Shown here in pieces: positions 6,122 through 22,910 of a DNA stretch of 23,536 bases. The first letter of the stretch is position 1, and each line of letters starts with the position of its first letter. Source of the stretch: a virus; IMG/VR virus record IMGVR_UViG_3300042924_006373, positions 1 through 23,536 of that record; one strand, given 5' to 3'. The notes beneath the pieces were generated by a model, which ran no database searches, was not told where the DNA came from, and worked only from the letters and a program-made list of their open reading frames with translations. The translations under genes were made by a program, and so were the position numbers.

Positions 6122-6402
6122 TAGAACTGATTCTGAATTGGTCTTTTATTAAGAATAACAGGAGGCACCATATCACTAGCAGAGCGATCCACCTCACGCA
6201 CGTATGCTGGATTATTTAATTGAAAACGAGGATTATTGCTACCGTTATAACCAACAACATAAGAACAAGGTGTGTGTTGTTCTTGCTTACCTGGCTGCAA
6301 AGGATTAGATAACTCAGCAGTAGTCATGTTGTAATCCTGATACATGTTCCCGTATTGAACAGGAAATGAAGAGCTATAACCAGGTACGTTTGCAAACCTC
6401 AT
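6121..6402 (-). CDS. Small hypothetical protein (MRFAN N-terminus)
   Basis: A 93-residue protein starting at an ATG that overlaps the stop of the M23-like gene (ATGA). It begins MRFANVPGYSSS. The 402-residue protein at 21021-22229 begins MRFANITNYLSN and also directly follows a gene with the same C-terminal tag. The rest is polar (Asn, Pro, Tyr, Gln) with no membrane segment or recognised domain. A minor virion role is inferred from position. Confidence 0.55.
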   Translation of the reverse strand: MRFANVPGYSSSFPVQYGNMYQDYNMTTAELSNPLQPGKQEQHTPCSYVVGYNGSNNPRFQLNNPAYVREVDRSASDMVPPVILNKRPIQNQF

Positions 6403-7061
6403 CCTAAATAATTAACACGAGGAGCTTGGAAAAGTTTTTGTGCCATCTCAAGCGGCGAGAATCTTTGTTTGCTTTGTGTTTTAAAACGATCTACAATGTA
6501 ATTCTCAAGAAGTTGTTTTGGTGTAATTCTTTCTTGTTTCTCACCATCAACAAGATCAATGACAATATTAATTGGTTGACCAGGGATTGATTGTTGTTGT
6601 TGTTGTTGAGTTTTTTGCGTTTGAGCTACTGAATCCATACCCAAAGTTGCTTCTTTTCCGCCTTTAGTATGAAGCAATTCAATTTCATATCCTTCTGGAG
6701 TCTGAATAGTTCCTAACCCTCTTCCTGGTTTAAAAGCTCCCATTCCTTTCCAGTAAATTGGCGTGCCTCCAGGAATACCAAAATCCACGCCCCTGTGATA
6801 AGTAGAGGCTCCAGCAACGGGCGCAGACCTTGGACCGTATGGAGAAGTAATTTGAAAAGCTGGCGTAAACTGTTGACCGGATTGTTTATATAACGGAGTT
6901 TTATTTTCTCCAATCAGCAGGTTTTGCAATCCAGTGCGCCAAGTAGTTGGATCAATATATTGTCCACCTTTTTTAACACGAACATCTAAGTGAGGACCTG
7001 TTGTAGGGAAAACGTCCTCACCTGCTTTTGCAACAAATCCGGTGTGAATAATGCCAGCCAT
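6399..7061 (-). CDS. M23-like (LytM) peptidase with apparently permuted motifs
   Basis: A 220-residue protein; TAAGGTC precedes ATG 7061. Residues 71-104 (ITSPYGPRSAP, YHRGVDFGIPGGTPIYW) match the start of an M23 zinc endopeptidase domain, with the HxxxD pair at H89 and D93. Residues 117-131 (GTIQTPEGYEIELLH) fit the following strands and a catalytic-type His (H131). The element that normally closes the domain, GPHLHF, appears at the N-terminus as TTGPHLDVRVKKGG (H24, D26), so the motif order looks circularly permuted and a zinc-ligand His is replaced by Asp. After a six-Gln run (residues 152-157) comes a C-terminal segment shared with the neighbouring transglycosylase. It probably cleaves peptidoglycan peptide cross-links from the virion or during lysis. 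Activity is inferred. Confidence 0.75.
   Translation of the reverse strand: MAGIIHTGFVAKAGEDVFPTTGPHLDVRVKKGGQYIDPTTWRTGLQNLLIGENKTPLYKQSGQQFTPAFQITSPYGPRSAPVAGASTYHRGVDFGIPGGTPIYWKGMGAFKPGRGLGTIQTPEGYEIELLHTKGGKEATLGMDSVAQTQKTQQQQQQSIPGQPINIVIDLVDGEKQERITPKQLLENYIVDRFKTQSKQRFSPLEMAQKLFQAPRVNYLG
6591..6608 (-). repeat. CAA trinucleotide run encoding six glutamines
   Basis: Six perfect CAA codons (TTG on the plus strand) encode the glutamine linker between the peptidase part and the shared C-terminal domain of the M23-like protein. Such a run can change length by slippage without breaking frame. Confidence 0.8.
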
Positions 7062-7069
7062 GACCTTAA

Positions 7070-7801
7070 TTACATTTTTAAATATTCAACACGCGGAGTA
7101 TTGACAAGACTATGTGCCAACTCCATTGCTGTTGGAACGGAAGAGCCGTCTTGATTGCTAACTCTATTTTTAAATTTATTTAAGAGAGCAGTAAGCGGAT
7201 CTTGTGTTTCTTCTTGTTTTCCTCTCCTATTGATCGTAATGTTAATGGTTGGAATACCGCCTGTTTGCTGTACCGTTGTTGCTTGTGGGCTAGCTGGAAC
7301 TGGTTGGCCAACAGATTGTTTTTGTTGTTGGTAATAGTTGTACAGGTCACCGAGTTTTTTAGAAGGCTGCCCGTAGTAACTTCCGCCACTAGATGTTGGC
7401 AATGAAGCCCACTCTGGAGCAAGCTTGTCAGTAACAACTCCAAATTTTTCTCCCTTTAAGAATGGTTGTAACGCACCGCGTTTTTTATCAATTAAGTAAA
7501 GAGCTGCAAGGTCTTGTGATTTTGGAGAAAAATCAGGTAACCCTAAAGCTTTAGAAGTGCCTTGCCAGGTTGGCGTTAAAAATTGGTATCCTCCAGCAGC
7601 TGTGCTTGTGTAGCCCCCTCCAGTGACGGCTTTATCAGGATGGCGCCAGCCTTTGGACGTATCAAACTTACCACCCCCAAACATGGTTTGATAGCCAGAC
7701 TCTCCTGGAGTGCCCTCGGCATAACGGATGGTATTTAACAGCGCCCGAACTTCGGGACGTGTTTGAAGAAGCGTTTCGTAGTATTGACGTAGCTGAGACA
7801 C
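7070..7801 (-). CDS. Lambda-R-like lytic transglycosylase (GH104 type)
   Basis: A 243-residue protein from a GTG at 7801, four nucleotides after the upstream stop. A TTG at 7849 in the same frame would add 16 residues, and neither has a clear ribosome site. Residues 17-150 resemble phage lambda R endolysin. RYAEGT holds the probable catalytic Glu (E29, matching lambda SEGT), followed by GYQTMFGGGKF, GGYTSTAAGGYQFL, LGLPDFSPKSQDLAALYLI, KKRGALQPF, PEWASLP and YYGQPSKKL. Enzymes of this type cut the glycan backbone of peptidoglycan without hydrolysis. A Gln/Pro linker leads to a C-terminal domain (from about residue 183, INITINRRGKQEE to TPRVEYLKM) shared with the M23-like protein encoded next. 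The position among virion genes and the shared tail suggest a virion-associated enzyme rather than, or as well as, a classical endolysin. Confidence 0.85.
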   Translation of the reverse strand: MSQLRQYYETLLQTRPEVRALLNTIRYAEGTPGESGYQTMFGGGKFDTSKGWRHPDKAVTGGGYTSTAAGGYQFLTPTWQGTSKALGLPDFSPKSQDLAALYLIDKKRGALQPFLKGEKFGVVTDKLAPEWASLPTSSGGSYYGQPSKKLGDLYNYYQQQKQSVGQPVPASPQATTVQQTGGIPTINITINRRGKQEETQDPLTALLNKFKNRVSNQDGSSVPTAMELAHSLVNTPRVEYLKM

Positions 7802-7805
7802 GGGC

Positions 7806-8285
7806 TTATCGGAAGTTGTATTCGAAGTAGAAGCGGGTTCCAACAGCAACGTCTGCGGGTCCAGGTAGGGCCTGAATGAATTCCGCGCCTTCCCGCTCGA
7901 AGCGATAGCGGGCTTGCATAGGGTTTCTATAATTAGCGACGTACAAATGAAGAGCTAAGCGATCAGTTTCATACAGATAAATCTCCGTCCAAGTTTTTAG
8001 TGTGTCTTTAAAATCGGTCGTGGTAATAGTACGGTCAACGTCACCAGCAATATTCTCAAGGCGATTACGAGGAACTGTATTGTTGTTTACACTACCGGTC
8101 ATATCGGTGCGTTTTTCAGCCTCATCGCACCGAGTAACCTGTTCGACCAATTTTTGATACCAGAAAGAATCTGGTACGTTATTAAGAGCTTCTTCTAGTC
8201 GAGCAAGATCACCAGCAGGGATGGATGTGGTGTTATATCCCAGGTGCCAACGAATCTTTGACTTTAAGAAACTATCTAGTTGCAT
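7806..8285 (-). CDS. Probable head-tail connector or completion protein
   Basis: A 159-residue protein from ATG 8285, with no Shine-Dalgarno sequence but a small hairpin at 8304-8320 upstream. It is mostly helical in appearance, with a charged middle (VTRCDEAEKRTDM, NRLENIAGDVDRTI) and an ordered C-terminal half: DTLKTWTEIYLYETDRLALH, then RFEREGAEFIQALPG and VGTRFYFEYNF. I do not recognise a named family with certainty. Size, position after the capsid genes and before tail genes, and the helical N-terminus fit an adaptor or completion protein that binds the portal. The role is inferred from synteny. The GTG start of the next gene lies four nucleotides after its stop. Confidence 0.5.
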   Translation of the reverse strand: MQLDSFLKSKIRWHLGYNTTSIPAGDLARLEEALNNVPDSFWYQKLVEQVTRCDEAEKRTDMTGSVNNNTVPRNRLENIAGDVDRTITTTDFKDTLKTWTEIYLYETDRLALHLYVANYRNPMQARYRFEREGAEFIQALPGPADVAVGTRFYFEYNFR

Positions 8286-9672: not shown

Positions 9673-9690
9673 TGTTAATTACCTCCTTCC

Positions 9691-10833
9691 TCAAACGATG
9701 GTAAAAGCAGTGGTAATGAAGTCCTTGTTCAGGTTGGCAAAACCAGCGTACAGCTGCCAAATCAGAATGATAAAGCGGCTGAAGTCATCATTGTTGTTGA
9801 TGAGCACCTGAGCGTTAGGACCACCAATGCCAACGCCAACGGCCTGAGGACCGAAGAACAGAGCAGGAGGAGTGTTGTGGGAAACAGCACCAAGACCGTC
9901 GCCAATATCAACGGTAATGGTCTTAGAGGGAAAGTTAGTGGATTCGTAGAATCGCACACCTTCAAACACAAAGCCAGTCGGCATGGTGGGCTCACCACCC
10001 ACAAACTGGGCTTGACCATACTGACCACCGCCATAGATAGCAGCATTGGGGTTCATGCCGCTCATCAGTGGGTTACCGGGAGCAAAGCCAGGGTAACGAG
10101 CCACTTCACGGAAACCTTGGTCAGCACGCAGGTCCTTCATGAAGGAAGGATCGGCAATACAACGGTAGTAGCCGTCAGCAAAAACAGGAACGTTACGCTT
10201 ACGCAGGCTTTTGACCACGTCAAGCAGGTCGCTCTTCACGTTAAACTTGTAACGCTCAGAGGCATACTCAGTTGCGGTGTAAGCAGCCAGGGTAGTAGCG
10301 CCTGTTTTAGCGTGGTTATTAGGATAGAAATAACCACCTTGGGTGTCAGAAGACTGACCACGGGACTCGGACTTGAACAGTTCGTCCAGGAACACACGGT
10401 CGCGCCAGCGGCGATAGTCGTCCAGCAGAGTCAGCGAACCGATGGACTGGTGGAACATGTTAAGGTTCCCGGTGTCCAGCAGCAGACGCTGAGCAGTCAT
10501 CAGAGTCTCACGAGCAATTTTGAAAGTGCTCGGGAGGTTTGCATTGTTCGGATCAGCAGGACCAGTGTACTCACGCAGAGACACCAGCACTTTGTCCTTA
10601 ACAATCGAACGGCTGTTAGCAGTGCCGATGGTTTGATCCTGGGTACGCTCACGGTTAGTTTTTGTACCAGGATTACCCCAGAAGCGGTAACGGTCTAACT
10701 GAACAGTTTGACCGGGTTGTTTGGTAAAATCGTGAACAACAACTGGCTCGCAAGCCATTTCCACGATATAAGCCGGGTGGGGACGGTAAAGTTCCGCGCC
10801 CAACAGCTTAGGAAAGTCGTTATCAATAAACAT
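9691..10833 (-). CDS. Probable major capsid protein
   Basis: A 380-residue protein from ATG 10833 with only a weak purine site (GAAGAA). It has its own candidate promoter and a leader of about 100 nt. The size is typical of HK97-fold shells. Features include VLVSLREYTGPADPNNANL, a helical segment LTLLDDYRRWRDRVFLDELF, a possible E-loop-like Gly/Tyr region (GGYFYPNNHAK), FADGYYRCIADPSFMKDLR, and a C-terminal part with GGEPTMPTGFVFEGVRFYES. These last elements resemble the N4-gp56/P22-like capsid families. Codon use is GC-rich: sampled 60-nt lines give 55-63% G+C against roughly a third to 40% in surrounding genes, as expected for the most abundant protein. Synteny (terminase, portal, scaffold, capsid) supports the call; the exact capsid family is uncertain. 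Confidence 0.75.
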   Translation of the reverse strand: MFIDNDFPKLLGAELYRPHPAYIVEMACEPVVVHDFTKQPGQTVQLDRYRFWGNPGTKTNRERTQDQTIGTANSRSIVKDKVLVSLREYTGPADPNNANLPSTFKIARETLMTAQRLLLDTGNLNMFHQSIGSLTLLDDYRRWRDRVFLDELFKSESRGQSSDTQGGYFYPNNHAKTGATTLAAYTATEYASERYKFNVKSDLLDVVKSLRKRNVPVFADGYYRCIADPSFMKDLRADQGFREVARYPGFAPGNPLMSGMNPNAAIYGGGQYGQAQFVGGEPTMPTGFVFEGVRFYESTNFPSKTITVDIGDGLGAVSHNTPPALFFGPQAVGVGIGGPNAQVLINNNDDFSRFIILIWQLYAGFANLNKDFITTAFTIV

Positions 10834-10937
10834 GTTGGTTCTTCAGCGTAGGGTTAGCTGATACCGGAGATCGAGAAGATCCCTACATAATGACAGATGC
10901 CATTAAAAGATCTGGGAACTTCCGTCCCATTGATAAA

Positions 10938-10967
10938 ATTATAGCAAGACTTACTTATTGCGGTTAA
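10938..10967 (-). promoter_or_regulatory. Sigma70-like promoter ahead of the capsid gene
   Basis: On the minus strand, TTAACC (10967-10962) and a perfect TATAAT (10943-10938) are separated by 18 nt, with TG one base before the -10 hexamer (TGCTATAAT, extended -10). The start would fall near 10930, giving a leader of about 100 nt before the capsid ATG. The leader contains two small hairpins (TGGGA/TCCCA and GGGATC/GATCTCC). It lies in the longest intergenic gap of the window (10834-10981), where no gene is visible. It would give the capsid and following genes extra transcription by host RNA polymerase. Confidence 0.55.
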
Positions 10968-10981
10968 TAAATAAAAGCAAA

Positions 10982-11710
10982 TTAAGTATCTTGCGATTTT
11001 TCAGGCTTGTTTGCTTTTTCTGCAAACGCCCTAAGGAATCTACCGACGCCAACACCAGCCAGTGCTGTTGCTGCTGGTGACAGCGCGTAACCGGCAACTT
11101 GATACAAACCAGGTTTACCAGAAACAGCAACACCTGCTTGATTCAAAAGATTTGTACCACGACGTGTTGCTTCTATTTCCGAAAAAATGCGGCCACTATT
11201 ATTTAGATAGTTCATTGCAAGAGCAAGGCCAGTTGCCCGGCGAGTTGACGGGGACAGGGCACTAACCCCAATGGTTGCTAATCCAACAACATTTGGATTT
11301 AGCCCAGTATATAAATTACTTTGAATGTAGTTAGGAGTTCCACCACCTGCTGTAATGCTTTGATGGCCAAGCTCGTGGCCAAGAGTAAACTTACTGGCAA
11401 ATGGATAGTTTAAAGAGATAGCTTTTTTTGCTGAATTAGAATAACTAGCGCCTGTAGGACTAGTATTAACCGTAACGTTTGGCTTGACTCCTGTTTGTTC
11501 TGCAAATTTATTAATAATGTTTCTTGAATCTTCAAAAGTTGAGTAATAAGTTTTTCCTTGTAAATTTGTAGTACGTTTAACAGCTGCACCTGTTTCACGC
11601 AACCCTTCTGTTCGATACTGTTGAACAGCTTGTTTTTGTAACTTTTTAACTCCAGTAAAACCAGCTAAGGCAGCTGCTCCACCAAGTGCAGTTTTAAAAA
11701 TAGAGTCCAT
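10982..11710 (-). CDS. HELGH zinc-metallopeptidase-like protein, copy B
   Basis: A 242-residue paralogue of the preceding gene. The active-site helix is SKFTLGHELGHQSI (H112, E113, H116), and a second motif, SGRIFSEIEATRRGTNLLNQ, supplies E178 or E180 as the likely third zinc ligand. HExGH followed by E-[FI]-x-A-[ST]-RR resembles the YugP-like Zn_peptidase_2 family from memory. Ala/Gly-rich hydrophobic stretches occur at residues 8-20 (LGGAAALAGFTG), 138-153 and 212-225, as in membrane-associated members. It lacks an obvious ribosome site, starts nine nucleotides after copy A, and lies directly upstream of the capsid gene, where prohead proteases are normally encoded. A role in processing the head or internal proteins, or in ejection, is inference. 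Confidence 0.7.
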   Translation of the reverse strand: MDSIFKTALGGAAALAGFTGVKKLQKQAVQQYRTEGLRETGAAVKRTTNLQGKTYYSTFEDSRNIINKFAEQTGVKPNVTVNTSPTGASYSNSAKKAISLNYPFASKFTLGHELGHQSITAGGGTPNYIQSNLYTGLNPNVVGLATIGVSALSPSTRRATGLALAMNYLNNSGRIFSEIEATRRGTNLLNQAGVAVSGKPGLYQVAGYALSPAATALAGVGVGRFLRAFAEKANKPEKSQDT

Positions 11711-11719
11711 TACTACAAA

Positions 11720-12388
11720 TTAAATTTCTGTTAGCGCGTTTTTAAAAGACCTTAAAAACCGTCCTGCAGCAAGGCCGCCAAGTGCAGTCATTGCTGGTGT
11801 TGTGGCGTAGGCTGCTGATTGAAATACACCTGGAGCAGGTGAAACAGAATAACCAGCTTGATTTAAAAGTTTAGTGCCTCGACGGCTAGCTTCTATTTCA
11901 GAAATAATACGCCCAGAATGATTTAAATAATTCATTCCTAAAGCCAAAGTTGTTGCTCGGCGCATTGATGGAACCATTGCTCCAACACCAACCGTAGCCA
12001 AACCAACAACATTTGGATTCAATCCTTTATAAGTATTCTCTTGAATCCATCGAAAAGAATCGTTGCTTCGGCCAATAGACTGGTGGCCTAATTCATGGCC
12101 AAGTGTAAACTTACTTGCGCTAGGAAAACTTAAAGAAATAACATTATCTTTTGTTGATGAGTAACTAGAACCTCCAAGATTAGCAACAACTTCAGGTGCA
12201 GGTTGCTGCGTTGATTTTGTATATTGATCTAAGATACGTTGTCGATCTTGTTCAACAAAAGCACTGCCTGTTTCTTGCAATCCTTTTTTTCGATATTGTT
12301 GAACACTTGATCGTCCTAACTGGTAAGCGCCAACAGCCCCAGCTGCTGCTGCAGCTGATTGAAGTAAGTTTGTAACTGCTGTATTCAC
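11720..12388 (-). CDS. HELGH zinc-metallopeptidase-like protein, copy A
   Basis: A 222-residue protein with a GTG start at 12388. It has the same architecture as the next gene: an Ala/Gly-rich N-terminus (LLQSAAAAAGAVGAYQLGR), a shared VQQYR-[KT]-GL-ETG segment, the zinc site FTLGHELGHQSIG (H98, E99, H102), GLNPNVVGLATVGVGAM, and SGRIISEIEASRRGTKLLNQ (E164/E166). The two copies agree at roughly two thirds of positions over the core (residues 88-214) and diverge between residues 42 and 88. Both keep every catalytic residue, so neither looks like a decayed duplicate. The family resemblance to YugP-like peptidases rests on the two motifs and their order. Substrate and role are unknown; see copy B for context. 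Confidence 0.7.
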   Translation of the reverse strand: MNTAVTNLLQSAAAAAGAVGAYQLGRSSVQQYRKKGLQETGSAFVEQDRQRILDQYTKSTQQPAPEVVANLGGSSYSSTKDNVISLSFPSASKFTLGHELGHQSIGRSNDSFRWIQENTYKGLNPNVVGLATVGVGAMVPSMRRATTLALGMNYLNHSGRIISEIEASRRGTKLLNQAGYSVSPAPGVFQSAAYATTPAMTALGGLAAGRFLRSFKNALTEI

Positions 12389-12399
12389 AATTTATGGAG

Positions 12400-12570
12400 C
12401 TACTGCATTAAATCGTAAGGACGATTAAAAGTACTGTACTGAGTTGTAGGCAGTGGTCCAATGCGTTCAAGCGGATTGAATTCTTGAGGTTGCAATGTAG
12501 CATTCTCAATGTTAACTTCTGGCCGAATAAAGTTAGCTAAAAACTTTTTACTTGCAGTTTTGTTTTTCAT
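12400..12570 (-). CDS. Small hypothetical protein, 56 residues
   Basis: ATG at 12570 follows the upstream stop by three bases; a weak GAAGAA lies about eight nucleotides before it. The product starts MKNKTASKKFLANFIRPEVN and ends TFNRPYDLMQ. It fills the only gap between the Gly-rich protein and the first metallopeptidase, has no internal stops, and keeps the tight gene packing, so it is probably real. No family is recognised. The segment FLANFIRPEVN faintly recalls the PRV-Y tag found at the ends of three other proteins here. Confidence 0.5.
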   Translation of the reverse strand: MKNKTASKKFLANFIRPEVNIENATLQPQEFNPLERIGPLPTTQYSTFNRPYDLMQ

Positions 12571-12573
12571 AGT

Positions 12574-13107
12574 TTATTCTTCAATATCAAAATTCATCAT
12601 GCCAGGGCGTTGACGTTGGAAAACCTGTGCAGTTTTCATGTGTGCCGTTGTTCCAATGTTCATAATGGGCAACGGAGATCCCATTTGATTTAAATGCACA
12701 TACCCAGCTTGAAGATCTTGTGGCATAGCACTAGAACCAAATTGACCAACTGCTGGATTACGTTGCGTATTATCTCTAGAAATGTAATCCATTAAAGCAC
12801 TTAAACCAGCATTAGCTCCCATGCCACCAACAAATGCTCCGCTCAAACTAACACCGCTAGCAATTAAACCGACATCACGTTTACCAATATTGCCTTTAGT
12901 GCCAACAGCTGAACCTGCTTGTTGTGCAGTGGCGCCGACTTTTTCTAAAAACTGGCCTACTTTTTGACCAACCTTACCCACTTTGGCTGCTCCAGCAAAT
13001 TCTTGCCCAACGCCTGCAAGTTGTGACCCACGATATTCAAGACCTCGTGCAATGCCGCCCCCTAAATAAGCAGCTGCTGTTCGAGCAGAATCAGGAAGAA
13101 TAGCCAT
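12574..13107 (-). CDS. Gly/Ala-rich hypothetical virion protein
   Basis: A 177-residue protein, first gene after the terminator at 13117-13148, with no ribosome site (AT-rich upstream). The N-terminal half is Ala/Gly-rich and helical (ARTAAAYLGGGIARGLEYRG, QKVGQFLEKVGATAQQAG), followed by a hydrophobic glycine-zipper stretch, VGLIASGVSLSGAFVGGMGA (about residues 79-98). The C-terminus is polar (SPLPIMNIGTTAHMKTAQVF) and ends in acidic FDIEE. No family is recognised. The composition resembles the presumed internal proteins at 18360-22910, so a minor head or ejection protein is a fair guess. Confidence 0.55.
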   Translation of the reverse strand: MAILPDSARTAAAYLGGGIARGLEYRGSQLAGVGQEFAGAAKVGKVGQKVGQFLEKVGATAQQAGSAVGTKGNIGKRDVGLIASGVSLSGAFVGGMGANAGLSALMDYISRDNTQRNPAVGQFGSSAMPQDLQAGYVHLNQMGSPLPIMNIGTTAHMKTAQVFQRQRPGMMNFDIEE

Positions 13108-13174: not shown

Positions 13175-14356
13175 TCATTCCATCACCAGAAGTTTCTGGC
13201 GGAAAACATTTGGATTTTGTTGTGCCATGGACAAATAGCGCCAGGCATTGACAGGATCACGTTCTGCAACATTGCCAAAGTTATTCCAGAAACTTTGGCT
13301 ATCTACAGTACCTTCTGGAACTGGTGGGATGGGTAAAAAGGGACGCTCTAAATACCCGTTGTTATACCCCGAATCATAAGTGGCTCCGTAGTTATTGCCG
13401 TAACTATAGTCAGTTTTGTTATAAATTTCCGGGTTATAGCAATTGTAGTAAGAGTCGTAGTAATAAGTGCCATCTACGTCGTAGTAACCTTGGGGATCAT
13501 AGTAATACCCATCGGCACCATAGAATCCAGGGTTAGAAGAATTAAAGAAAGAATCGTAGTAATAGGTACCGTCTAAATCGTAATAACCTTGAGGATCGTA
13601 ATAATATCCAGCAGCATCATAGAAACCGCCGTCACTATTACCTTCTTGTACAGGATACGGGCCATTGGGACCGAAAAACTCAATAGTGTAATCAGCGAGT
13701 GTGTCCGGATCTGTAAGAATTGATTCGTAAGCCTGATGTTCTGCAGCAAGTTCTTGTAAAAGACCAACAGATTCTTGCAGTTGCCCAGAGCTTTGAATTA
13801 AAGCATCTTCCAGATTGCAAGAATATTCATTCAGAACAGCAGGCGCATCAGCACCAAAGTGGTCAATAACCTCAAGACTTTGTGGACTTACTCCGTTTGC
13901 CAGTAGCTGTTGTGTTGTTATTCCCTGCGATGTTTGGGAATAATTGGGCGAGTAACCCAGGTTGGATGGATAAATCGGGGCTACCGAATTGTTGCTGTAC
14001 CCCACGCTCTGTTGGGAACTGAAGCTGCCCGGGTCGATTCCGCTCATCCCTACGGATTGTTGACCCTGGAACGGGAAGGGCACTGGCGAACTCAGGAGTG
14101 ACACCACCCTGTTGAACGCTTCCTTGTACGGGTTGTCCGCTGTAGGTTGGGCTTGCGGGTACGACTGGATAGGGGCGTAAGGTGCCGCCGAGATCTGGGC
14201 CTGCATCTGCGGGGCTGGCGACGTCGCCGGTTGGTACGGTGCCACCCATTGACTGGTCGTTGCCACCGGAGCTGCTTGTGGAGCCGCGTAGCTGGTCGGC
14301 GGGGTCGAATACTGTTGGGGTGCCGATTGGATCGGCGCTGCGGTATCGGCCTGCAT
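13175..14356 (-). CDS. Scaffold-like capsid assembly protein, overlapping the portal gene
   Basis: A 393-residue protein with a clear ribosome site (AGAAAGAGG, six nucleotides before ATG 14356). The first 160 codons lie inside the 3' end of the portal gene in another frame and encode a Pro/Gln/Ser/Ala-rich low-complexity region. Residues 155-238 are helical (DALIQSSGQLQESVGLLQEL) and lead to ILTDPDTLADYTIEFFGPNG, a motif I associate from memory with scaffold proteins of related phages. Residues 244-309 contain two tandem 33-residue Tyr/Asp-rich repeats. The C-terminus (PVNAWRYLSMAQQNP, then FRQKLLVME) is helical and would suit capsid binding. Scaffolds guide shell assembly and then leave. The position between portal and capsid supports this. 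A virion protein with a Tyr-rich segment is the alternative. Confidence 0.7.
   Translation of the reverse strand: MQADTAAPIQSAPQQYSTPPTSYAAPQAAPVATTSQWVAPYQPATSPAPQMQAQISAAPYAPIQSYPQAQPTADNPYKEAFNRVVSLLSSPVPFPFQGQQSVGMSGIDPGSFSSQQSVGYSNNSVAPIYPSNLGYSPNYSQTSQGITTQQLLANGVSPQSLEVIDHFGADAPAVLNEYSCNLEDALIQSSGQLQESVGLLQELAAEHQAYESILTDPDTLADYTIEFFGPNGPYPVQEGNSDGGFYDAAGYYYDPQGYYDLDGTYYYDSFFNSSNPGFYGADGYYYDPQGYYDVDGTYYYDSYYNCYNPEIYNKTDYSYGNNYGATYDSGYNNGYLERPFLPIPPVPEGTVDSQSFWNNFGNVAERDPVNAWRYLSMAQQNPNVFRQKLLVME
13430..13627 (-). repeat. Two tandem 33-residue Tyr/Asp-rich repeats
   Basis: Two 99-nt in-frame copies encode GFY-A-GYYYDPQGYYD-[LV]-DGTYYYDS, then a variable Phe/Tyr/Asn tail ending NP. Within each copy, YYYDPQG and TYYYDS are themselves related subrepeats. 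They lie in the scaffold-like protein at residues 244-309. Confidence 0.85.
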
Positions 14357-16085
14357 AAGTTACCTCTTTCTGTAAGCTTTCGAGTGTTCTGTAAAGGAAA
14401 GGCGTCATATCGAGACGCGGATCAGCTGCCAGAGGAAGATCCGGGCGCTGGGGATGTGGTGTACGCATCTCTTGATTAATGAGATCAATGAAAGCTGCAT
14501 ACGCTTTTTGTACTTGTCCAACCATTCGGAATGGATAGCCGGAGAGCATTTCTGCAACTTCGTCATCCGTTTTGGAAGGGAACAAATACTTAAGTGCCTC
14601 AATACTATCAACACCCAATTCTTGTAAGTTACGAGTAAAGATAGATTGATTAACTTTATCTTGTGGAGTGTCTTCATAAACAGGACCCATCCAGCGCCAA
14701 AGAACTGTGCGGTCTCCGTCAGGAGCAAGTCCGATAACGCCAGGGGGAATTTCTTTGGATTCAAAAGCTTTGTTTAAAGCTTTATCTAATCCTTTTTCAT
14801 ACTTCTGTTTTGCTTTTTCATGAGCTTTTAAATCCTCTTCTGTAGCATCTTCAGAAAGAACTGGATATTGCAATCCAGATGCAGCAGCAAGTGACTTTCG
14901 GAAGAGTTGTTCTTCCTGATAAATCATTAACTCAAAACAACGGCAAATTCCGTATGTATAAAGTTGCAGACACTTTTTCTTTGCTGTGGCGCTAACGCGA
15001 CCATAAGCAGATTTAATTTCTGTAGCAGTTACGTTAGTAATAGAAAGGTCATCAATACCGCCAAGAGCAAGACGGATTTCTGATCTTAACTGTTCAACGT
15101 AACGTGCTTGGTCAGTGCTAATTGCGTTTGGAGTAATAAAACCAACACGATCAGTTGGTTCCAGGTTTGCAATAACACGCGGTACGCGAAGCCCGCCTCC
15201 AGGTAAACCAATATAACCAGCTTGTTGGCGGTCAACAGGATCCTGTTTAAAGGTTGAACTAGATAAAGAAAACTCAGATTGGAATCCAGATTGGCTAGCA
15301 ATACTAGGACGTTGCACCGCGCCGTCCCGCGCTGTTTCAACAATGTCGTGTTTTGGCCGAGAAGAAAGAAGTGTAGGGTTACCAAAGAAAGAAAGGTTTG
15401 CCCTAATGTTCTTAACCATCTCATCGTGGGCAATAATTTGATTGGATAACCATTCAAATTCGCCACTTCCTTCTGTTCCAAAAGCGTCTGGGTTATTTAA
15501 AACCTCAACGCAAGGAATAAAACCCAGAGTGTTTTCAACAGTTGTATCGCCAAAAGTTAGGTTTGAATCAATAGAATCAAACGTTAACTCTGATTCACTA
15601 TGGAGTTCTTGGATTTTTTCTGGAGTAATTCGTAAACGCATGTAGCGTTTATCAGTCATTAAACCAACGCCACCAAATCCACGACTGGATTTAACTTTAT
15701 AAGCGTAGATAATAATGACTTCTTCTAGGTCTCCATCCGGAGAGTAGTAAGTTCGATAAGCATCTTTATCAAACCAATAAAGCCGGTAAGTTTTTTTAGT
15801 AGGCCGGATGTAAAACAGGCCTTTACCGTAGGCTAAAAATCGGTCCCAGATGGAATCTAAACGAGCATCAAGTTTGTTAAACTTAATGACTTGTTGAATA
15901 AAATCAAACCGCTGCGTACCAAAGTTATCTTGGTTGGGATAAAACTCCACACCTTGCCTAATCCCAAACATTTTCATTTGGGATAGGTGGGCGTTAATGA
16001 GCATTGTGTCTGCTGACCCCGTGGATTCACGGTTAACAACAGCTTTGAGCATTCCTTCTAGAATGGATTGGCTCGACGTGCTCAT
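13872..16085 (-). CDS. Portal protein with a long dual-coding C-terminal extension
   Basis: A 737-residue protein from ATG 16085, without a clear ribosome site. It follows the terminase and AbrB-like genes. The core fits a portal: LDARLDSIWDRFLAYGKGLF (early helix plus 'GKG' strand), VIIIYAYKV, EWLSNQIIAHDEMVKNIRAN, VGFITPNAISTDQARYVEQL, RLALGGIDDLSITNVTATEI and the following helix AYGRVSATAKKKCLQLY, then a long charged helix (EEDLKAHEKAKQKYEKGLD). It forms the dodecameric vertex through which DNA enters and leaves the head. The last 161 residues (from about residue 577) are Pro/Gly/Ser/Gln-rich and are encoded by the region that also encodes the start of the scaffold-like protein. That tail is disordered in appearance and ends in basic GKRSKSTKS. 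Confidence 0.85.
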   Translation of the reverse strand: MSTSSQSILEGMLKAVVNRESTGSADTMLINAHLSQMKMFGIRQGVEFYPNQDNFGTQRFDFIQQVIKFNKLDARLDSIWDRFLAYGKGLFYIRPTKKTYRLYWFDKDAYRTYYSPDGDLEEVIIIYAYKVKSSRGFGGVGLMTDKRYMRLRITPEKIQELHSESELTFDSIDSNLTFGDTTVENTLGFIPCVEVLNNPDAFGTEGSGEFEWLSNQIIAHDEMVKNIRANLSFFGNPTLLSSRPKHDIVETARDGAVQRPSIASQSGFQSEFSLSSSTFKQDPVDRQQAGYIGLPGGGLRVPRVIANLEPTDRVGFITPNAISTDQARYVEQLRSEIRLALGGIDDLSITNVTATEIKSAYGRVSATAKKKCLQLYTYGICRCFELMIYQEEQLFRKSLAAASGLQYPVLSEDATEEDLKAHEKAKQKYEKGLDKALNKAFESKEIPPGVIGLAPDGDRTVLWRWMGPVYEDTPQDKVNQSIFTRNLQELGVDSIEALKYLFPSKTDDEVAEMLSGYPFRMVGQVQKAYAAFIDLINQEMRTPHPQRPDLPLAADPRLDMTPFLYRTLESLQKEVTYAGRYRSADPIGTPTVFDPADQLRGSTSSSGGNDQSMGGTVPTGDVASPADAGPDLGGTLRPYPVVPASPTYSGQPVQGSVQQGGVTPEFASALPVPGSTIRRDERNRPGQLQFPTERGVQQQFGSPDLSIQPGLLAQLFPNIAGNNNTTATGKRSKSTKS

Positions 16086-16104: not shown

Positions 16105-16290
16105 TCAGTTGTCTTCAATCTCGTAGCCACTTTGGAGACGCCTCAGAGTGATAACGTCATCCTCTACTTCGATATCAAACTCAGTCCCAGGTTGCAAAGC
16201 CATGTCATGGCAAAGCTCATCAGGTAATGGAATGATAGCTGAACCGTAAGCGTCCTGCTCAAGTTCAACAGTAAAATAACCAGTGCTCAT
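16105..16290 (-). CDS. AbrB/MazE-like (SpoVT-AbrB) small protein
   Basis: A 61-residue acidic protein between the large terminase and portal genes. AIIPLPDELCHDMALQPGTE followed by FDIEVEDDVITLRRL matches the swapped-hairpin AbrB/MazE fold: a strand, 'lP-el...L-PGt--di-v-dd-itl'. Such proteins are dimeric DNA-binding regulators or antitoxins. No toxin gene lies beside it, so an antitoxin role is unlikely here. It may be a small transcription regulator, or the fold may be reused in assembly. The start has no ribosome site in its AT-rich upstream region. Confidence 0.7.
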   Translation of the reverse strand: MSTGYFTVELEQDAYGSAIIPLPDELCHDMALQPGTEFDIEVEDDVITLRRLQSGYEIEDN

Positions 16291-22229: not shown

Positions 22230-22910
22230 TTACATGTACCTTACTGATGGTGTTGAAAGCATGTCTTTAGCCATCTCAAAAGAACTGGGTGCACCTCCTT
22301 GACTAATGTGATACATGTAGCTCGGGAACTTATAGTTCCGAGCATAGATTAATTCCATCTGACGTTGATGCTGTAAAGCATTTAAATCAGCTGCAGTTGG
22401 TCCAGCAGGCGTAGATGCTGATGGCATAGAAGGTACATCACCATACTGAACACTTTGACCACTGCTATAGCTTTCAGGGAAAATAGAAGTTGTAATAGCT
22501 TTGGTCAACGGTTCAGTAAGAGCGTGTGTACTAACAACACCTAAACCTAATTTTCCAGCACCTGCTGCCATCCCTGCTAAACGTGTTGGCATTTGACCGG
22601 ATAATCCCATCTGGCCAAGGCGGTCAGCTAAAGCAGGCTGTAAACCTGAAACACCAGGAACAGCTCTTTTTAATCCAGCCAAGGTTGTTCGTTCAATTGG
22701 CCCACTCAAGGCTCCAATCGTTGCTGAACGTAAAAGACTTTGTTCAAGTGGAGGGGCATCTTTGCCCAGTATTACTGGTAAACCCTGCTCTAATGCAAGG
22801 TTAGCACCAGCGCCTAAAGCAGCTTCTTTGAGAAAAGCCCTACCACCAGCAGGAGCAACAATTGGAGCTAAACGTTGTCCAGCAACGCGAAGTACTTGAC
22901 CGAGCATCAT
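22230..22910 (-). CDS. Ala/Gly-rich protein with the shared C-terminal tag
   Basis: A 226-residue protein starting at a double ATG that overlaps the upstream stop. The first two thirds are Ala/Leu/Gly-rich and helical (APAGGRAFLKEAALGAGANL, RLAGMAAGAGKLGLGVVSTH). The middle is polar, and NYKFPSYMYHISQGG leads into SFEMAKDMLSTPSVRYM. This ending matches the last residues of the transglycosylase and the M23-like peptidase in the window. No enzymatic motif is seen. It may be an internal virion protein directed to the same site as those enzymes by the common tail. Confidence 0.6.
   Translation of the reverse strand: MMLGQVLRVAGQRLAPIVAPAGGRAFLKEAALGAGANLALEQGLPVILGKDAPPLEQSLLRSATIGALSGPIERTTLAGLKRAVPGVSGLQPALADRLGQMGLSGQMPTRLAGMAAGAGKLGLGVVSTHALTEPLTKAITTSIFPESYSSGQSVQYGDVPSMPSASTPAGPTAADLNALQHQRQMELIYARNYKFPSYMYHISQGGAPSSFEMAKDMLSTPSVRYM

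Follow-up and report, generated by a model that had tools for sequence, protein, structure and literature searches.

Predicted HELGH metallopeptidases in the head module of S-EIV1-like cyanophages: an apparently accessory, exchanged gene family with two copies in one genome

Introduction

Zincin metallopeptidases share a core that part of one published account describes as a three-stranded sheet with an N-terminal helix, a helix carrying the HExxH motif and a second helix with a glutamate (PMC5512222). No domain is more frequent than the zincin among the proteins that phages and plasmids are presumed to inject, according to that account (PMC5512222), and variable SprT- or ArdC-like zincin genes of jumbo phages are read in part of another text as aimed at host proteins (PMC7824862). 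Further points of comparison are the peptidase families M48 (PF01435; HtpX and BepA type), YugP (PF04298), M78 (IrrE/ImmA) and ArdC and, by genome position, the prohead protease Peptidase_S78 (PF04586).

Here we describe two adjacent HELGH genes, A and B, from a freshwater cyanophage. The window, which is the whole 23.5-kb virus record analyzed, is a fragment of an S-EIV1-like genome. The A/B peptidase family is named ZP, and phages or loci with and without it are denoted ZP+ and ZP−. ZP resembles the polyvalent-protein and jumbo-phage zincins in being phage-encoded, in its variable presence and in its catalytic layout; in the parts of the two sources that treat them, however, those enzymes are domains of large proteins or SprT/ArdC-like, whereas ZP is small, stand-alone, membrane-prone and encoded in the head module (PMC5512222, PMC7824862).

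Organization of the Head Module

The nearest known portal, terminase and capsid proteins are those of Synechococcus phage S-EIV1 (KJ410740), with identities of 52.6, 65.4 and 69.6%, respectively. In transcribed order, all on the minus strand, the genes run terminase, portal, a long overlapping ORF, x, y, B, A and capsid (Table 1). Both ORFs of the adjacent HELGH pair that the initial annotation had placed directly upstream of the capsid gene are present on this strand. The small gene y is found in ZP+ and ZP− relatives alike.

Table 1. Coordinates of features in the window
Feature	Position	Strand	Support or remark
Gene A, 242-aa HELGH metallopeptidase (predicted)	10982..11710	-	A clade; AlphaFold2 pLDDT 90.1
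A HELGH, residues 112-116, two predicted zinc ligands and general base	11363..11377	-	invariant in relatives
A Glu178, predicted third zinc ligand	11177..11179	-	invariant in 19-sequence alignment
Gene B, 222-aa HELGH metallopeptidase (predicted), GTG start	11720..12388	-	B clade, like capsid gene; AlphaFold2 pLDDT 91.8
B HELGH, residues 98-102	12083..12097	-	19-sequence alignment
B Glu164, predicted third zinc ligand	11897..11899	-	19-sequence alignment
y, 56-aa ORF directly 5' of B	12400..12570	-	B-backbone type
x, 177-aa Gly/Ala-rich protein, long form	12574..13107	-	membrane-like segment VGLIASGVSLSGAFVGGMG
Predicted capsid promoter, downstream of A	10938..10967	-	TTAACC, 18 nt, TATAAT with extended TG; consensus match only
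Structured leader of capsid mRNA	10831..10937	-	conserved; B-type sequence
Major capsid protein, 380 aa	9691..10833	-	phrog_1357, E 4e-15
393-aa ORF	13175..14356	-	485-nt overlap with portal gene, frames differ
Portal protein, upstream end of head module	13872..16085	-	phrog_20475, E 4.2e-215; phrog_64 portal, E 1.6e-5
61-aa ORF between terminase and portal genes	16105..16290	-	resembles phrog_661
M23-like protein with shared C-terminal end	6399..7061	-	
Lysozyme-like protein with shared C-terminal end	7070..7849	-	
Third protein with shared C-terminal end	22230..22910	-	

Several neighboring features were recorded alongside the peptidase genes. The overlap with the portal gene recurs, at 476–554 nt and with the relative frame unchanged, in each of the 20 loci compared, among them S-EIV1 (21 tried), and an RBS-like AAAGAGGTAAC.TATG precedes the start of the overlapping ORF in the 19 loci where the start is visible, with a variant in S-EIV1. 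The S-EIV1 record annotates only the non-overlapping end of this ORF, which to judge from these patterns looks like a real, long overlapping gene. The leader of the capsid mRNA, about 100 nt between promoter and start codon, has a 5' hairpin of the UGGGAC..GUUCC type; a CAGC..GCUG hairpin is also common to the 19 aligned leaders, the middle hairpins are variable, and a compensatory change was counted in one pair only. No Rfam family was found in the window. In some relatives the capsid gene is interrupted near codon 4 by a group I intron (Rfam RF00028; L052:5721-5996, L069:2667-2907 and L346:2061-2301, the last on the minus strand) with an HNH-like ORF on the opposite strand. The 61-aa ORF bears a weak likeness to the antitoxin family phrog_4681 (E 0.0026), and the large terminase of S-EIV1 (L008:9081-11621) has 846 aa against 507 in the window, the insertion looking like an intein.

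Motifs, Constraint and Predicted Fold

HELGHQS and SEIEA[ST]RRGT-LLNQ occur in both A and B, so that the full motif set reported for two adjacent genes is confirmed. The two proteins are identical at 119 of 222 aligned residues (54%), a similarity far above chance (E 2.3e-63), and at 66 of the 89 residues (74%) of the core from ASKFTLG to LLNQAG; the earlier estimate of about two thirds was about right. Of the two Glu residues in the second motif, a 19-sequence alignment shows the first (E178 in A) to be invariant and the second (E180 in A) not, which makes the first the likely third zinc ligand. Both copies are under constraint, as had been proposed, with dN/dS against relatives of 0.16–0.17 for A and 0.14–0.18 for B.

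Ala/Gly-rich hydrophobic helices lie at both ends of A and B, and a hydrophobic hairpin lies between the two motifs; these segments are marginal, with a 19-residue hydropathy of about 1.0–1.5. AlphaFold2 predicts a confident zincin-type core in both proteins (Table 1), in the order long N-terminal helix, helix and strands, HELGH helix, hairpin, long Glu helix and C-terminal helix. The predicted core consists of three strands, the N-terminal helix, the HELGH helix and the Glu helix, and in B its elements are H46–60, E66–70, E76–78, E83–87, H93–107 (with HELGH) and H142–177 (with E164); the sheet and helices of this model have the arrangement of the zincin superfamily.

Among 37 distinct ZP proteins, both window copies included, HELGH is present in 36 of the 36 that cover it and E..A.R in all 37, and the motifs are kept down to 24–25% identity. 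One ZP protein that is 25% identical to A (L160) occupies the same slot. The reading as zinc metallopeptidases with membrane-prone helices has held up, given motifs invariant in 36–37 distinct proteins, confident predicted cores and low dN/dS. From these features we infer zinc binding and catalysis, and the hydrophobic sequence segments suggest membrane association.

Relationship to Known Peptidase Families

In structural comparison, many zinc peptidases can be superposed on the ZP core at Z 4–6, including ArdC and M1 aminopeptidases, BepA (Z 5.8 over 111 residues, 3.4 Å) and IrrE (Z 5.2–5.3 over 91–92 residues, 3.4–3.7 Å), a level that can mean only a common arrangement. No match exceeds Z 8, and rows of helical ABC transporters score equal or higher. 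Foldseek returned no PDB or BFVD match to the ZP models at E 0.001 or better.

Profiles of peptidase families drawn from genomes were compared with ZP and controlled by 60 shuffles in which HELGH was kept. M48 scores 57.6 over 133 columns with both motifs aligned (shuffle maximum 49.0), M78 46.2 over 30 columns around HELGH with one motif (42.4), and YugP 41.1 over 82 columns with both motifs (34.5); the hhalign E-values are those of single pairwise comparisons and not of a database search. Since the scores exceed the shuffle maxima, there is signal beyond HELGH, and it is best for M48. Masking HELGH removes most of it (scores 24.9 and 23.3), and the wider placement of ZP therefore rests largely on the active-site motifs.

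With M48, ZP shares HExxH, a downstream E-x-E-A with R.G and an AGY-like tail. It differs in having hydrophobic helices at both ends and in the M48 signature HExxH...ExEAD, of which HExxH and E..A are present while a Ser or Thr, or in one case an Asn, stands in place of the Asp throughout the 19-sequence alignment. PF01435 matches were listed for two of 14 members, both below the cut-off of 20.3 bits (L054 14.6, L157 15.0). The YugP-like character suggested in the initial annotation stands in part: the order HExGH, hydrophobic hairpin and E..A[ST].R agrees in a profile alignment with 26 PF04298 proteins, but PF04298 has no match in the window at E up to 10 and the profile score is weaker than that of M48. 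None of six records exceeded the PF04298 cut-off, and a pure YugP assignment was dropped. The family also gave no hit in 13 sampled genomes, mostly of cyanobacteria, other than Heliobacterium and Formimonas. PF04298 hits in three long relatives appear by sequence to be ArdC-like proteins elsewhere in those contigs and were set aside as not ZP; ArdC-like proteins with HELGHA lie elsewhere in three ZP+ phages (L121, L122 and L123). M78 and ArdC resemble ZP in the FTLAHE-type active-site helix and in structural rows at Z about 5, but the M78 profile match is confined to the columns around HELGH, with one active-site motif aligned, and an M78 assignment was not adopted. On sequence and model comparison, we take ZP for a zincin family without a name of its own, close to M48 and YugP.

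Distribution of ZP

In scans of viral contigs, 50 IMG/VR contigs besides the window proved to carry ZP relatives, with few exceptions in the corresponding slot. ZP occurs in 85 of the 150 loci searched, counts that include overlapping re-fetches of the same contigs, and two copies occur in the window only. No ZP relative was confirmed in a pattern scan of the genome_contigs collection, in which 84,980 species are represented by one genome apiece. Against 386 genomes of the cyanobacterial phylum, the ZP profile gave 12 weak hits, mostly M48-like, and no clear orthologue. Proteins of three small genomes of that phylum (L313, L321 and L322) have the ZP layout of HELGH, hairpin, E..A and hydrophobic end; their matches are weak (E 6e-5 to 0.007), and they are possible distant cellular relatives. 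PHROG and NCBIfam yielded nothing significant for ZP, Pfam cut-offs were not reached, and PADLOC offered no convincing model, its capP matches spanning the HELGH helix only; a match to a PPR protein was discarded as a repeat artefact. No paper on the family was found in the open-licence literature searched.

To the extent that close relatives are concerned, presence is patchy. Of 595 confirmed hits to the capsid protein, the 80 best were taken as loci, which confines the ZP fraction to close relatives. Seven were dropped for an incomplete slot (one of them ZP+), and ZP is present in 14 of the 73 loci with a complete slot, or 14 of 68 by distinct slot sequence. It is absent from the other 54 of these slots among the best 80 hits, with capsid proteins about 88–97% identical, and from S-EIV1. 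In further records of 58–84 kb, 5 of 10 lack ZP, five of the ten having been chosen for carrying it. On a capsid tree of 71 rows, from which rows without x or a full capsid gene were left out, ZP was gained or lost at least three times. One ZP+ and one ZP− phage (L067 and L068) have near-identical capsid genes and different cassettes, and in one contig (L161) some 50 kb separate a divergent ZP (9685-10419) from the capsid gene (59925-61055), the head slot there holding a short x and no ZP. With related phages carrying one copy or none, ZP looks like an exchangeable extra and not like head-building machinery.

Origin of the Two Copies

On the ZP tree, A groups with one set of phages (L003-L006; support 99/99) and B with another (L029-L038; 100/99), and a topology constrained to unite A and B fails the AU test (p 1.65e-57). 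A capsid DNA tree places the window as sister to the B-type phages (99/99). At the upstream junction, y and B are B-type and the start-codon context of A is shared with A-type phages; after A, the capsid leader is again B-type, with the switch inside the shared promoter. Together, the clades, the capsid affinity and the junctions indicate that A was probably inserted from another lineage into a B-type genome, between B and the capsid promoter.

The adjacency of A and B on the same strand at 54% identity speaks for a tandem duplication, which would have to be ancient within the group and followed by loss of one copy in all other members. That origin is no longer tenable as the main explanation and appears very unlikely: the two genes lie in different clades and are not sisters, ZP is single-copy at 84 of 85 loci (overlapping re-fetches included), and the flanks of the pair are B-type, the capsid gene and leader of the window going with the B clade. 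Because the window is a single metagenomic contig, the pair might also have arisen by chimeric assembly from two strains. A single crossover between two contigs, however, would leave an A-type leader, and the two switches observed, at the start codon of A and in the shared promoter, make a simple chimera unlikely; we give it very little weight, marginally less even than duplication. Insertion of A from another lineage remains the probable origin of the pair.

The Neighboring Gene x

The length of x is 179–237 aa in 24 ZP+ slots and has a main mode of 142–145 aa (range 86–198) in 52 ZP− slots, where two 86-aa entries (L099 and L106) are y wrongly taken for x and a different 198-aa protein (L108 and L111) was counted as x. 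This variable gene product of the slot before the capsid gene has a clear hydrophobic N-terminal segment. A membrane-like Gly/Ala-rich module of x is found in 21 of 21 ZP+ rows and 3 of 50 ZP− rows under a rule (no Pro, hydropathy of at least 1.25) that was set after seeing the data; the S-EIV1 x was counted as module-free, its segment having a hydropathy of 1.56 but holding a Pro. ZP and the module change together in all three independent pairs on the tree (p 0.25), and with three pairs only, the association cannot reach 0.05.

Discussion

We consider it slightly better than an even bet that ZP is an accessory, membrane-associated metallopeptidase, swapped by recombination, whose substrate at the membrane would be a host protein or x. 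A and B would then be small enzymes of the zincin superfamily, each predicted to bind one zinc through both HELGH histidines and a glutamate, Glu178 in A and Glu164 in B. In S-EIV1-like cyanophages the gene usually ends the portal–x–y run ahead of the predicted capsid promoter, and it would be an accessory one, subject to gain, loss and exchange through recombination; B would be the window's backbone copy and A an addition from another lineage. The sequences themselves establish the gene order, the invariant motifs, the patchy presence, the two clades with their exchange and the junctions at the insertion. We infer a target at the membrane: during infection the enzyme most likely acts at the host membrane on a protein close to it, a host protein being a likelier substrate than a capsid protein. 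In its presence and absence, its swapping and the stacking of two clades, ZP resembles genes aimed at variable host factors, an argument also made for the SprT- and ArdC-like peptidases of jumbo phages (PMC7824862). This reading has to accommodate the usual place of the gene inside the head operon, which also fits a virion protein, the ABC-transporter rows that equal or exceed peptidase matches none of which passes Z 8, and the marginal hydrophobicity of the segments; nor do any of the results point to a particular host target.

The position between portal and capsid genes had led to the proposal that ZP is the prohead maturation protease, replacing the usual serine enzyme. Peptidase_S78 is indeed missing, and no conventional prohead protease, the finding named beforehand as counting against the proposal, turned up elsewhere (0 of 12 records match PF04586). 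ZP− phages, though, equally lack S78, so that the absence of a known prohead protease is a trait of the group at large and offers no pointer to ZP. Position is also the only likeness: ZP is predicted to be a metallo- and not a serine-type enzyme and is dispensable in the group, and conservation with the head genes, as expected of a maturation protease, is not seen, only 14 of 68 distinct slots carrying ZP and S-EIV1 lacking it, while in one phage ZP lies far from the capsid gene. Across 67 distinct capsid proteins the N-terminus, MFIDNDFPKLLGAELYRPHPAYI, hardly varies from residue 1 onward, and none of 137 loci has an in-frame extension, which argues against a removed N-terminal part. A role for ZP as an essential head-maturation protease finds no support and is highly improbable.

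Two other readings keep ZP closer to the particle. A virion-borne protease, ejected with the DNA and directed at the host envelope or at proteins injected alongside it, would suit the late head-module position, the Gly/Ala-rich helices and the prominence of zincin domains among proteins thought to be injected, as part of PMC5512222 has it; yet one ZP homologue lies outside the head module, and ZP does not have the C-terminal peptide common to the two downstream wall-hydrolase-like proteins, which leaves such a protease unlikely. That peptide (such as ELAHSLVNTPRVEYLKM) occurs in similar form on the M23-like, the lysozyme-like and a third protein of the window, a related end of the ..PVNYF type is present on M23- and lysozyme-like proteins in most ZP+ relatives examined, with some M23-like copies more divergent, and by its sequence it could be a packaging or docking tag. 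Only a shade less doubtful is the idea that ZP processes or works with x, by clipping or inserting it, x perhaps being an ejected internal protein. The longer x of ZP+ slots, the near-exclusive membrane-like module and the concerted changes speak for such a partnership, but they amount to three pairs and a module rule chosen after the fact, and exchange of x, y and ZP as one linked cassette would account for the pattern equally well; moreover, one phage (L095) has the module without ZP, and L161 is a counter-example with ZP elsewhere and a short head-slot x. A combination of these two ideas, in which x and the peptidase form an exchangeable two-part virion module, x inserting into the cyanobacterial membrane during ejection and the co-delivered peptidase cutting an inner-membrane protein or maturing x, is distinctly less probable than either. 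If it were true, related phages would differ in their membrane attack by cassette swap, and the window phage would stack two specificities.

The outcome removes the claim of a metallo-type head-maturation enzyme. ZP keeps its full predicted zinc site across a widespread group of cyanophages, though no convincing Pfam, PHROG, NCBIfam or PADLOC model covers it. Being a membrane-prone protease that is exchanged among phages whose capsid genes are nearly the same, it is a good candidate for a host-directed function, and the naturally paired ZP+ and ZP− phages make such a function testable.
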